Source: Flavobacteriales bacterium
GTDB lineage: Bacteria > Bacteroidota > Bacteroidia > Flavobacteriales_E > Vicingaceae
Direction of reading: 5' to 3'
DNA: 64,000 nucleotides
Assembly: GCA_013359255.1 (NCBI GenBank)
Contig: JABWCF010000002.1
Coordinates: forward strand, 1 to 64,000
Notes under the pieces: model-generated
Seen by the model: the letters and a program-made list of their open reading frames with translations, nothing else
Databases searched by the model: none
Told to the model about the DNA's origin: nothing
Program-made: the position numbers and the translations under genes
Part shown: one piece after another, positions 52,230-61,428 of the stretch
Position numbering within the stretch: position 1 is the first letter of the stretch
Layout: each line of letters starts with the position of its first letter

Positions 52230-53750
52230 ATGCTTTCAAAAAAAGTATTTTTAAATTCCATACTCCTTGGCACTAGCAGCTTGCTGTTTAACTTAGGGTT
52301 TATTTTTGCACAAAACACACAAATTAACCGTACAAATAATTGGTATTTTGGTGGTGGGGCAGGTATTAACTTTAATGGGGGCTCAGCTACTGCCGTTACA
52401 GACGGACAAATGTATGTATATGCAGGCTGTGCAACGATGAGTGATACACTGGGAAATTTACTAATGTACACAGACGGGCAAACGGTGTGGAATAAAAACC
52501 ACCAGATTATGCCTAACGGAACAGGTTTACTGGGTGATGGAACACCAGTTCAAAGTAGTATTATAATTCCAAAACCTTTAGATGATAATCATTATTACAT
52601 TTTTACATGTGCTGGATACGATGGCAACCCAAATGGTATTAGGTACTCTATTGTTGACATGACATTAAATAATGGATTGGGTGATATTTCTATAAAAAAT
52701 GAATTGCTGTTTCAACCAAGCAGCGAACAGCTTGGTGCTACCATGCATGCAAATTGCACCGATGTTTGGATTACGAGCCATGAACTAAATAGCAATAAAT
52801 ATAGAGCATACTTATTAACATCCAATGGAATTGATACTAATAATGTAGTAATAAATGAAATTGGAAACTTTGGAATATTTGGGCAACACCTAAAATTTTC
52901 ACCTAATGGCAAAAAAATGGCAGCAGTAAATTACTGGGATAATATCAATTTACCCAACAATCTCGACACACTCGAACTTTTTGACTTTAATTCTACTTCA
53001 GGAATTCTGACTAATTTAACGAAATTACCAGATACTTCCATTGTCACTTTTGAATTCTCTCATGACAGTAAATTTTTATATGTTTCTAATTTCAACACAG
53101 AACGAGCTAATTTATATATTATACCAGGCTTCGAAGAAATTTTTCAATATGATTTGTCTTCAAATAACGGAACTTTAATAAAACTCTCGAAAACATTAGT
53201 CTATGAACCTTTGAGTACGCCTATAAACAATTACAATACCTGCTTCTGTGATTTTCAACTAAGCCCAGATAACAAAATTTATGTTTCGTCAATGTATGAC
53301 AGTCTTTCGGTTATTAACTATCCAAATTTGGCAGGAGTAGCATGTAATATAGAGGAATTAATCTTTTCATTAAATGGCAAAACATCGTTTACTAAATTAC
53401 CTAATTTCGTATCTTCTTATTTTGATCAGGACAGTACGGGTTGTTTTTATTCTGCAGGTGCAAAAGAAATTAATGAGGAGCAAGTAAGTATCCATGTTTA
53501 CCCTAACCCTTTTAGTTTTTCTACAACTATAGCACTAAATTTCCTTCACGATAACAACGATGAATTTGAAATTGCTCTATACGATATCTTCGGCAGAAAC
53601 ATAATTACCCATGCTATGATTGGTAGTACTGAACAATTCAGTAAAGAAAGCGTTTTTACGCTGCATAAAAAAAACCTAAATACCGGGATATATTTTCTGA
53701 ATATCCGCATCAATCATAAAACTTACACTCAAAAAGTAATTATTAACTAA
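52230..53750 (+). CDS. T9SS cargo protein with WD40-like propeller
   Basis: 506 residues. Signal peptide (residues of about 10-27, cut near FAQN), start NNWYFGGGAGINFNGGSATAVTDGQM typical of Bacteroidota surface propellers, repeats such as DTLGNLLMYTDGQTVWNKNHQIMPNG and HLKFSPNGKKMAAVNYW, then a C-terminal type A T9SS sorting domain (VYPNPFSFSTTIALNF ... GIYFLNIRINHKTYTQKVIIN). It is cell-surface or secreted; no specific activity is known. The next gene (adhesin) follows after 11 bases, so the two are probably expressed together. Confidence 0.75.
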   Translation: MLSKKVFLNSILLGTSSLLFNLGFIFAQNTQINRTNNWYFGGGAGINFNGGSATAVTDGQMYVYAGCATMSDTLGNLLMYTDGQTVWNKNHQIMPNGTGLLGDGTPVQSSIIIPKPLDDNHYYIFTCAGYDGNPNGIRYSIVDMTLNNGLGDISIKNELLFQPSSEQLGATMHANCTDVWITSHELNSNKYRAYLLTSNGIDTNNVVINEIGNFGIFGQHLKFSPNGKKMAAVNYWDNINLPNNLDTLELFDFNSTSGILTNLTKLPDTSIVTFEFSHDSKFLYVSNFNTERANLYIIPGFEEIFQYDLSSNNGTLIKLSKTLVYEPLSTPINNYNTCFCDFQLSPDNKIYVSSMYDSLSVINYPNLAGVACNIEELIFSLNGKTSFTKLPNFVSSYFDQDSTGCFYSAGAKEINEEQVSIHVYPNPFSFSTTIALNFLHDNNDEFEIALYDIFGRNIITHAMIGSTEQFSKESVFTLHKKNLNTGIYFLNIRINHKTYTQKVIIN

Positions 53751-53761
53751 GCATTTACAAC

Positions 53762-55135
53762 ATGAAAAAAACAATCAAACAAGTAATTATAGCGACTATA
53801 GTCTCTACTTGCACAACTAATAATATGTGTTTTGCACAATTTAATATTGGTGGCATGGGACTTGGCGACCGTTGGGGACAAACAAATGATCCGGGGGGAA
53901 CAAACAATGATATTCGCAGGGTAGGAATTGGGCATTTTAATAATTTTAATAGTGCACCTGCAGCGGCTTTACATATTAATGCAAATTATTTAACTGCCGT
54001 CAATCCACTTGCTCCTAACACATTTCTTCCAGGCGAAGTATTCCACACTTCCGGCCCATCAGCTAATGTGAACGCTTGGCGTTTTTTTACCGGGACCGGA
54101 AATGGCACCGAAAAGTTCAATATTAATGTTCCTGCCGGCAGTAGTGATGTAAATATTGTAACATACCAAAACGGATTTATGGCATTCCACACCAACGTTA
54201 CCGAAAGGCTGCGTATTACCGCAGCAGGCAGCTTGCAAGGATGGCCGGGCAGTATTGCCGGTGGATTACGCAGCATTGCCTTTGGATTCAATACAACCGC
54301 CTCTGGTGATAACAGCCAAGCCTTTGGACAAACTACCACTGTTTCGGGTGCTAATGCCACTGCCTTCGGAAGCAGCAATATCGTTAACGGTGGTGCTTCC
54401 TTTGCTTCAGGCTCGGGTAATGTAATTAACGGAGGTAGTACAGCCATTTTTGGAAACAGCAATTCTGAATTAAATGCTCTAAGTGTAGGAAATTTGGTAG
54501 CAGGTGCCAATAATCAATTAAACAACTGTGCTTACAATTTTGTGGGAGGATATTCAAATTCCCTGCAGTTGAGCAGCAACAATATGGTGATGGGGACTAA
54601 TAACACCATATTAAACAGCACGGATTGTGGCATAATTGGTAGTAATAATTCTATGGCCGGACAAAGGTCGTTTTGTTTGGGAATAAACTCAGCCATTACC
54701 ACTAATGCTTCCAATACTTTTGCAGGAGGCTCTAATTCTACAGCTAACGGAAACGATTGTTTTGCTTATGGAAGTACCGCTACTTCCAATGCCCAAACCG
54801 CTTTTGCTTTTGGCGAAAATGTTACTTCCAATGGCGTTCTCTCTTTTACGCTTGGCACTGGTAATGTAGCCAATGGAGGGGTTTCTTTTGCTATAGGAAC
54901 TTTTACCGAAACAAAAGGCTTTCAAAACTATTCCATAGGAACAGGTTTAAGTCTTGGACAAAAAATGAACAATAGCATTGATAATTCTTTTGCCGTAGGC
55001 TTTCTAAGCACTATCCCTACTTTTTTTATTGAACCTCCTGTTGTTCAGGGACTACAGGCAATCGGACGTGTGGGTATTGCTACTACAGCACCACAAACTA
55101 TGCTGCATGTTGCCAACTCTCCGGGGGGGGCTTAG
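53762..55135 (+). CDS. N-terminal part of a frameshifted YadA-head/S74 adhesin
   Basis: 457 codons, ending in TAG just after a run of eight Gs. Signal peptide (ending CFAQ), about 140 residues of N-terminal stalk, then roughly 240 residues of 14-residue repeats with SxAxG patterns (SIAFGFNTTASGDNSQAFG; ATAFGSSNIVNGGASFASGSG), the head repeats of YadA-like trimeric adhesins, and RVGIATTAPQTMLHV, the phrase that precedes the tail-fibre part in such proteins. If the G-run had seven Gs the frame would continue without break into the gene part at 55131-56444, giving an 893-residue protein. Confidence 0.7.
   Translation: MKKTIKQVIIATIVSTCTTNNMCFAQFNIGGMGLGDRWGQTNDPGGTNNDIRRVGIGHFNNFNSAPAAALHINANYLTAVNPLAPNTFLPGEVFHTSGPSANVNAWRFFTGTGNGTEKFNINVPAGSSDVNIVTYQNGFMAFHTNVTERLRITAAGSLQGWPGSIAGGLRSIAFGFNTTASGDNSQAFGQTTTVSGANATAFGSSNIVNGGASFASGSGNVINGGSTAIFGNSNSELNALSVGNLVAGANNQLNNCAYNFVGGYSNSLQLSSNNMVMGTNNTILNSTDCGIIGSNNSMAGQRSFCLGINSAITTNASNTFAGGSNSTANGNDCFAYGSTATSNAQTAFAFGENVTSNGVLSFTLGTGNVANGGVSFAIGTFTETKGFQNYSIGTGLSLGQKMNNSIDNSFAVGFLSTIPTFFIEPPVVQGLQAIGRVGIATTAPQTMLHVANSPGGA
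55123..55130 (+). repeat. G8 homopolymer in the adhesin gene
   Basis: Eight consecutive Gs after CTCC and followed by CTTAG. Frame 1 meets TAG two codons later; removing one G restores a frame of 894 codons to the end of the gene. G8 is rare in AT-rich DNA, and only one other exists here (60975-60982). It is a candidate slippage (phase-variation) site or a sequence error. Confidence 0.8.
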
Positions 55136-56444
55136 TAACGATGGTTTTATACGTACCGACCCTTTAGCTACTGCCAGCCTTACGCCATATACCATTACCA
55201 CAGACGATGGCTTGGTTATAGCCGATATAGATGGTACACTGATTACAAAACTGCAATTTACCGGCAACAACACCGATGTATTACTGGGTGATGGTACATG
55301 GGGAGCAGGAGGTGGCGGTTTTAGCACTTGCGTTTCGCCTACTACTTTTGGCGGTAGCGGTGGGGCTGTCAACTTAAACAATACCGATAATTTTCATTTC
55401 CTTGGCAACAACTCTGGCAGTTTAATGGTAGATAATGTAATGATTGGGGCTACTTTCTGCGTTACGCCCTCAGCTAAATTACATGTGCTGCAAAACGTAA
55501 ACGCTCCTTCTTCTATTGGTATTTTAGCTGAAAATAATGACCTATCTTCTACCACCAATCCTACTGTTGGTTTAAAAAGTATTCTTCCTACAGATTCCTC
55601 ATGTTCTGCTATTGCTGCTTGGCTCGAAGCTCCTTCAGCAAACATAGCGGTTTGCCAACCTTATGCTTTATTTGTTCCGCATAACGGAGGCAGAATAAGT
55701 ATTAACCACCCTTACAACGACCCGGCTGCTATTCCATGGATGTTTGCTTTGAATGGGGCAGCCAACAGTCCTGTTGGCTGGTTTACTGTTTCAGACCAAA
55801 CCTTTAAAATGAATTTGAATGCCATTAGCAATCCGCTGGAAAAAATAAAGAACATCAATGGAGTTTATTTTGAATTCGATACCTTAAATTATCCTAATTA
55901 CAATTTTCCTGCGGGCAAACAAGTTGGTTTTATTGCTCAAAATGTAGATACCATATTGCCAGAAGCGGTTTCTGATAACGGAGGACCTTTGAGTTTAGAT
56001 TATGCTAAAATAACGCCTTTGCTTTTGGAAGCCGTTAAATCTCTAACTAAAAAGGTGGAAACATTAGAAACACAATTAAACCAATGCTGTCAAAACAACA
56101 ATCAAAATAACAGTGGAAATTCTAATAATCCACAAATGAATGAATTGGGCAATTCTATTAATGCAGCACTTAGCAATGGCGATACTATTGTGTTAGAGCA
56201 AAATGTACCCAATCCTTTTGCCGAAAATACTAGCATAAACTACTTCATTCCCGAAAACATTGGCTACGCCCAAATTATTTTTACCGATATGCAGGGACCT
56301 ATCATCAAAACCCTTGATATTAAACAAAGCGGAAAAGGGCAATTAAAAGTATATGCCGCCCATCTTTCTCAGGGCATTTACCAATACAGCATTGTGGTTG
56401 ATGGTAAAATGATTGACACTAAAAAAATGTTGGTGGAGAAATAG
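55131..56444 (+). CDS. C-terminal part of the frameshifted adhesin: S74 chaperone and T9SS domain
   Basis: 438 codons in the +1 frame beginning just past the G8 tract. It carries a variable region (LSNDGFIRTDP...), a peptidase S74/intramolecular chaperone domain (SDQTFKMNLNAISNPLEKIKNINGVYFEF ... VGFIAQNVDTILPEAV ... LDYAKITPLLLEAVKSLTKKVETLE, with the coiled coil at the end), an Asn-rich linker and a T9SS sorting domain (VLEQNVPNPFAENTSINYFIPENIGYAQIIF ... GIYQYSIVVDGKMIDTKKMLVEK). Alone it lacks a start and a signal peptide. It makes sense only as the second half of the upstream frame. No other lesion is seen. Confidence 0.7.
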   Translation, partial: LSNDGFIRTDPLATASLTPYTITTDDGLVIADIDGTLITKLQFTGNNTDVLLGDGTWGAGGGGFSTCVSPTTFGGSGGAVNLNNTDNFHFLGNNSGSLMVDNVMIGATFCVTPSAKLHVLQNVNAPSSIGILAENNDLSSTTNPTVGLKSILPTDSSCSAIAAWLEAPSANIAVCQPYALFVPHNGGRISINHPYNDPAAIPWMFALNGAANSPVGWFTVSDQTFKMNLNAISNPLEKIKNINGVYFEFDTLNYPNYNFPAGKQVGFIAQNVDTILPEAVSDNGGPLSLDYAKITPLLLEAVKSLTKKVETLETQLNQCCQNNNQNNSGNSNNPQMNELGNSINAALSNGDTIVLEQNVPNPFAENTSINYFIPENIGYAQIIFTDMQGPIIKTLDIKQSGKGQLKVYAAHLSQGIYQYSIVVDGKMIDTKKMLVEK

Positions 56445-59910: not shown

Positions 59911-59930
59911 AACAACTTTACCAAGTTGTT
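59911..59930 (+). promoter_or_regulatory. Hairpin just before the flippase start codon
   Basis: AACAACTT, loop TACC, AAGTTGTT: a perfect 8-bp stem ending 7 bases before ATG 59938. It occupies the position of a ribosome-binding region and might limit translation or terminate the transcript from upstream. Confidence 0.4.
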
Positions 59931-59937
59931 TATATCA

Positions 59938-61428
59938 ATGAATCCACTTAAAAAACTAGCCGGACAAACAGCTGTTTATGGTTTAAGCAGTATTGTTGGC
60001 CGTTTGCTTAATTACCTGCTGGTACCTATTTACACTTACCGCTTTGCTACAGGCGAATATGGCGTGGTAACCGAAATGTATTCCTACGTTGCCATACTGG
60101 TAGTGCTTCTTACCTATGGAATGGAAACGGCTTATTTTCGATTTACCAAAAGCGAAAACCCCGAAAAAGTGTATGGCACTTCGTTAATTTCATTGTTTGT
60201 TTCTTCTGTAATATTTATTTTTTTGGTTTACTTGTTCAAAAACGAGATAGCCGGTTTACTCAAAGGAAACACTTCAGAGCAAATTCCTTACGAAACCTAT
60301 ATACTATGGTTTGCCTTTATTATTTCTGCCGATGCTTTTACTTCTATTCCCTTTGCTTACTTACGTGAACAAGGAAAAGCCCTACGATTTGCCCTTCTGA
60401 AACTGGCCGGAATAGGAATAAACATTGGACTGAACTTATTTTTCATTGTATTGTGCATGGATGTGTATAAGCATGGAGAAACACATTCTTTATTTTCCTT
60501 TGTAAATTCTATTTATTCGCCCAACCTAGGAGTAGGCTATATTTTTATCGCCAATCTGGCAGCCTCACTCTTTTCTCTTGTATTACTTTTTCCGGAATTA
60601 TTTTCGGTTAAACTTGTTTTCGAAAAAGCTATTTGGAAAAAAATGATGCTATACGCGTTGCCTTTGTTGGTTATGGGTTTAGCCGGAAATATAAACGAAA
60701 CATTAGACCGCATTTTGCTGAAATATCTTTTACCGGGGAATATCAGCGAAAACCTTCAGCAATTGGGTATTTACGGAGCCTGTTATAAACTTTCTATCTT
60801 AATGACCATTTTTATACAAGCCTTTCGTTATGCTGCCGAACCATTCTTTTTTACACACCACAAAGAAAAAAATGCCCCAGAAATCTATGCTAGGGTAATG
60901 CTTTATTTTATTATTGTGTGCAACCTCATTTTTTTGGGCGTAATGCTCAACATTTCGTGGATACAATACTTTTTGGGGGGGGCATTTCGCGAAGGATTAC
61001 ACGTTGTTCCGGTTTTATTAATGGCCAATTTAATGCTCGGTGTATTTTTTAATCTTTCCATTTGGTATAAACTAACGGACAAAACACATTATGGTGCATG
61101 GTTATCTATAATAGGTGCCACGCTTACTGTTGTGTTAAATGTTTGGTGGATTCCTATTTGGGGATATACCGGTTCGGCATGGGCCACCTTAATTTGCTAC
61201 AGCATAATGTGTGTTTTATCATATTTTATCGGGCAAAAATATTTTCCAATTCAATATCCGGTACTCAAAATACTATTATATCTAGCATTATCCGTAATTC
61301 TCTATTTTGCCACATCGTTTATTTCTATTGACCATAATGTAGTTTCGGTGCTTCTAAACAATCTGTTTATCTTATTGTACCTTGTGCTTGTTTGGAAAAT
61401 AGAAAGACCTAAAAAAATGGTAATTTAG
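59938..61428 (+). CDS. Polysaccharide/lipopolysaccharide flippase (Wzx-type)
   Basis: 496 residues from ATG 59938 (MNPLKKLAGQ); an in-frame TTG at 59926 lies inside the hairpin and is less likely. Polysaccharide biosynthesis protein family with about 14 spans: AGQTAVYGLSSIVGRLLNYLLVPIYTYRF is the typical first pair of helices. It should move lipid-linked sugar units across the inner membrane. It contains a G8 tract (60975-60982, coding LGGA) that is in frame here; gaining or losing one G would truncate the protein before its last third of spans. First gene of the flippase-dut-nucleotidyltransferase-TPR operon. Confidence 0.9.
   Translation: MNPLKKLAGQTAVYGLSSIVGRLLNYLLVPIYTYRFATGEYGVVTEMYSYVAILVVLLTYGMETAYFRFTKSENPEKVYGTSLISLFVSSVIFIFLVYLFKNEIAGLLKGNTSEQIPYETYILWFAFIISADAFTSIPFAYLREQGKALRFALLKLAGIGINIGLNLFFIVLCMDVYKHGETHSLFSFVNSIYSPNLGVGYIFIANLAASLFSLVLLFPELFSVKLVFEKAIWKKMMLYALPLLVMGLAGNINETLDRILLKYLLPGNISENLQQLGIYGACYKLSILMTIFIQAFRYAAEPFFFTHHKEKNAPEIYARVMLYFIIVCNLIFLGVMLNISWIQYFLGGAFREGLHVVPVLLMANLMLGVFFNLSIWYKLTDKTHYGAWLSIIGATLTVVLNVWWIPIWGYTGSAWATLICYSIMCVLSYFIGQKYFPIQYPVLKILLYLALSVILYFATSFISIDHNVVSVLLNNLFILLYLVLVWKIERPKKMVI
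60975..60982 (+). repeat. G8 homopolymer in the flippase gene
   Basis: Eight Gs between TTTT and CATTTCGC, in frame as TTG GGG GGG GCA. It is the same length as the tract in the adhesin gene but in the functional phase. Confidence 0.8.

Follow-up and report, generated by a model that had tools for sequence, protein, structure and literature searches.

Pathogens such as Neisseria and Campylobacter provide well-documented cases of slippage-driven phase variation, and phase variation in the Bacteroidota is known mainly as DNA inversion. At the homopolymer contingency loci of Neisseria, Campylobacter and Helicobacter, G or C runs lie in surface-protein genes and the length of the run sets the reading frame. 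The invertible promoters of Bacteroides also give phase variation of surface components in a member of the Bacteroidota, but through recombinase-driven inversion and not through the slippage proposed here. Deep sequencing has shown that runs of at least 8 bases are mostly variable in Neisseria (PMC5084427). In group A streptococci, a C8/C7 change in mga reverts during infection (PMC11868660). A search of one collection of open-access papers revealed no description of homopolymer phase variation in flavobacterial genes or in genes of the type IX secretion system (T9SS).

The window analyzed here is a 64,000-nucleotide stretch (positions 1 to 64,000 of contig JABWCF010000002.1) from the 2.92 Mb genome of an uncultured Flavobacteriales bacterium, hereafter G000. 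It contains an adhesin-like gene (53762-56444) whose reading frame is interrupted at a run of eight G residues (G8). The features used in this analysis are as follows:

52230-53750, + strand: upstream gene whose match to the T9SS type A sorting domain is clear (TIGR04183, 46.8 bits)
53762-55135, + strand: first half of the adhesin gene, a 457-aa open reading frame with a signal peptide, an N-terminal domain and left-handed beta-roll/YadA-like head repeats
55123-55130, + strand: G8 run and site of the frame break, read directly from the sequence; the genome holds 11 isolated G8 runs, this one included
55128-56444, + strand: second half of the adhesin gene, read in the +1 frame and open for 438 codons
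55791-55970, + strand: Peptidase_S74 (chaperone of endosialidase) domain (PF13884, 43.8 bits, cut-off 22)
56208-56435, + strand: probable T9SS type A sorting domain (TIGR04183, 21.3 bits, cut-off 23)
60975-60982, + strand: second G8 run of the window, an internal control within an intact flippase-like open reading frame (59926-61428)

The frame break at G8 is real in the assembly. The open frame 53762-55135 ends at a TAG stop directly after the codon that uses the last G of the run, and with one G removed the downstream half joins it without any other lesion to give a combined product of 893 residues, the latter as proposed in an earlier sequence-only reading of this stretch. A one-base change in the length of the run therefore switches the frame of a predicted surface protein, as it does at a contingency locus. 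The domain labels given in that reading stood to different degrees. Membership of the S74 family is firm, with a PF13884 score well above its cut-off, whereas a YadA head and a sorting domain are plausible but weakly supported, since their scores fall just below the cut-offs; in the first half, YadA_head reached 22.3 bits against a cut-off of 25 (residues 166-189) and LbR_Ice_bind 28 bits against 30 (residues 246-338). Its S74 chaperone domain and putative beta-roll head repeats liken the gene to S74 tail-fibre-like proteins and YadA-like trimeric adhesins; where the latter have a trimeric autotransporter anchor, it probably carries a T9SS sorting domain. Copies of the protein's C-terminal end occur elsewhere in G000 with 71-95% identity (at the starts of contigs C25, C33 and C10, and at C4:196000, C2:195351 and C16:151770), and some contigs of this genome break at the recurring copies.

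Runs were counted across the genome by pattern search, and expected counts were obtained by extrapolating the G/C run-length tail of the window itself to the whole genome. This analysis revealed 11 G/C runs of exactly 8 bases where about 8.7 were expected, so that the G8 tract in the adhesin gene does not exceed chance in length or frequency. Runs of exactly 9 bases numbered 11 (1.7 expected) and runs of at least 10 bases numbered 8 (about 0.4 expected), counts that take in all G/C runs of the genome and not only those of the 5' C-run families described below. The excess of G/C runs thus starts at 9 bases, because exact-8 runs are near expectation and the longer ones lie above it. Most of the other G8 runs of the genome lie within intact frames, and in a recA-like and a hisF-like gene an 8-base run is kept in both species of the genus compared here with the frame unbroken. 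A G8 run is not in itself the sign of a switch, and the adhesin site carries the caution that a frame interrupted at such a run is, taken alone, no evidence of one.

One further genome of the genus came to light, that of Flavobacteriales bacterium CAJPFH01 (G001). At the adhesin locus it has the same upstream gene order, and the second half of the gene shares approximately 86% DNA identity with that of the window. The head is different and contains no G run; the frame passes through the position of the junction and ends at a TAA stop just 5' of the sorting domain. The expectation that relatives would carry a G run at this site was thus not borne out in the sole same-genus relative, and no tract of varying length was found there at the same position. 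Among 46 genomes of the family, no homologue of the first half spans the junction at full length, and a scan of genome contigs with the first half as query found no relative. Comparison of the second half with G001 gave a dN/dS of 0.11 over 325 codons, indicating purifying selection; the break is therefore recent or reversible. When window positions 53762-56444 were compared with contigs C9 and C50 of G001, the S74/sorting half proved conserved and the heads very different at this shared locus, which suggests that the head module may have been exchanged.

We consider it probable, with considerable room for doubt, that G8 is a mutable tract of accidental origin, in a gene disrupted only recently, and not a dedicated switch. 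The intact gene would encode a secreted YadA-head/S74 adhesin, exported and anchored by the T9SS. The G8 run would have arisen by chance in glycine codons, and a one-base change in its length, probably through slippage, would have broken the gene in the sequenced population. The predicted product of the broken gene is a 457-residue head that lacks both the S74 chaperone part and the sorting signal, and which is therefore probably not anchored at the surface. Such a run would be prone to mutation and may occasionally revert. The dN/dS of the second half is compatible with recent loss; as a counterpoint, a fully open and conserved second half is also expected of a reversible switch, and selection on a gene that is off but elsewhere undamaged fits both histories. 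The closest parallels to an accidental tract are mga and the meningococcal capsule (PMC11868660), where a short mutable run likewise breaks a surface-related gene and reversal is only occasional or occurs under strong selection, whereas reversal at G8 is a prediction.

The strongest competitor, which we judge unlikely but well worth weighing, is that G8 is a true contingency site at which slippage alternately permits and prevents the secretion and anchoring of the adhesin. The frame breaks exactly at the run, and other surface genes of the genus very probably contain G/C-run switches. A dedicated switch also keeps some of its probability because purifying selection acts on the downstream half, which is otherwise intact, and because 8-base runs can vary in other bacteria (PMC5084427). 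However, G8 runs occur at background frequency and mostly in intact frames; the site lies mid-gene and not near the start, the run is absent from the relative, and the relative's copy is ended by an irreversible stop. Compared with the contingency loci of pathogens, the site differs in this mid-gene position and background frequency, and also in its flavobacterial host and T9SS-secreted cargo.

G9 runs interrupt two more T9SS cargo genes, and this could favor switching at G8. In the window's species, a G9 run cuts an RCC1-like gene whose sorting domain is of T9SS type B (G000:C9 near 36930); the copy in the relative is intact and has no long run. In the relative, a G9 run breaks a gene for T9SS type A cargo; in the window's species this gene has no run there and a TGA stop lies farther upstream. 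All three mid-gene breaks at G8 or G9 thus fall in T9SS-type cargo, which could exceed coincidence. On the other side, two of the three genes carry irreversible lesions, which points to ordinary turnover, and irreversible lesions are also present in surface genes of both species. Ordinary turnover accounts for the three mid-gene breaks at least as well as switching.

An error of assembly or polishing, or a mixture of strains, with a true sequence that is in frame, is a less probable explanation still. It would agree with the perfectly open downstream frame of the adhesin, but the contig ends of G000 share exactly 99 bases, an overlap that makes a short-read de Bruijn assembly likely and hence a miscount of G8 in the consensus unlikely, as assemblies of this type handle a G8 run well; moreover, other G8 runs of the same assembly stand in frame. 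Programmed ribosomal or transcriptional slippage at the run, yielding the full-length protein, was rejected as very improbable, since the run offers possible slippery codons but neither it nor its surroundings are conserved and the relative has no such site.

The probable dedicated switches of the genus lie elsewhere: in other surface-protein genes, the start codon is closely followed by a C run of 8-15 bases. Two families of such genes were identified. In family A, the leader M..HKNNKGTF is followed by the C run and then by NYLKISLLCFFMSIFTLSAISQNLPNTLPDTGFVGVGT, with the run placed between the start codon and the signal peptide; run lengths are 8-15 bases and the products are YadA-like or coiled-coil proteins (weak domain matches). 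In family B, the leader MKHL (MKH/YL) is followed by the C run and IFGTLKTLVFAVF, with the run just after the start codon; the products are T9SS type A cargo proteins, 1300-1400 residues long in complete genes, and glycine-rich proteins at G000 C4 and G001 C72. A search of the window revealed no family B leader. The copies lie at the following positions:

Family A, window's species (G000): C3, C7, C22, C24, C27, C26:40051, C18:301474, C16:84608
Family A, relative (G001): C3, C8, C32, C45, C51, C55, C105
Family B, window's species (G000): C18:200650, C6:211, C4:231015
Family B, relative (G001): C31:71802, C28:58495, C45:102587, C65:34390, C72:3943

Of 15 readable family A copies, 11 are out of frame; the 4 in-frame copies all belong to the window's species. 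The tract is degenerate in the copy at G000 C16:84608, and copies L186 and L187 apparently have extra lesions near the signal peptide. An orthologous pair that is out of frame in both species (L188/L182) gave a dN of 0.05 and a dS of 0.56 (dN/dS 0.09). In family B the start is in frame with C9, except at G000 C4, and out of frame with C8. The C9/C8 frame state differs between the two species at the hemL and atpD loci, although the comparison of run lengths at atpD is not clean because the copy of the window's species, whose leader is in frame, has frame breaks downstream. Some out-of-frame family B genes retain open frames of 1314 and 1385 codons, and one family B gene body gave a dN of 0.07 and a dS of 0.50 (dN/dS 0.13). 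L194, which has lost its ATG, was left out of the counts.

Across the genome, long tracts go beyond chance; in these families they keep their position and differ in length in a way that switches the frame, and out-of-frame copies are under purifying selection. Such conservation of out-of-frame genes is hard to explain unless the frame is regained. In both families, surface proteins look subject to true slipped-strand phase variation, in which slippage at the 5' run would bring the protein, signal peptide included, in and out of frame. They are alike to the homopolymer contingency loci of pathogens in run length, near-start position and on/off states. The proposal of the sequence-only reading, that T9SS cargo varies in phase by slippage, therefore finds its support at the 5' C-run genes of the genus and little at G8, where the run is of background length, lies mid-gene and has no counterpart in the relative. 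These observations suggest that a flavobacterial lineage may vary its output of T9SS-exported and adhesin-like proteins by homopolymer slippage. A broader version, in which the genus uses multi-gene slippage phase variation of T9SS cargo and adhesins, combining C-run leaders in the two families with mid-gene G8/G9 runs that cut off the sorting domain, is possible but doubtful.

Long runs are also numerous in the relative, with 11 distinct runs of at least 10 bases in G001, and few or none in other genomes of the family, where those examined lie mostly inside open frames or outside genes. At G000:C18:60803 and G001:C7:9011, a G9/G8 run follows soon after a tRNA gene and precedes a possible secreted-protein frame, and its length differs between the two species.
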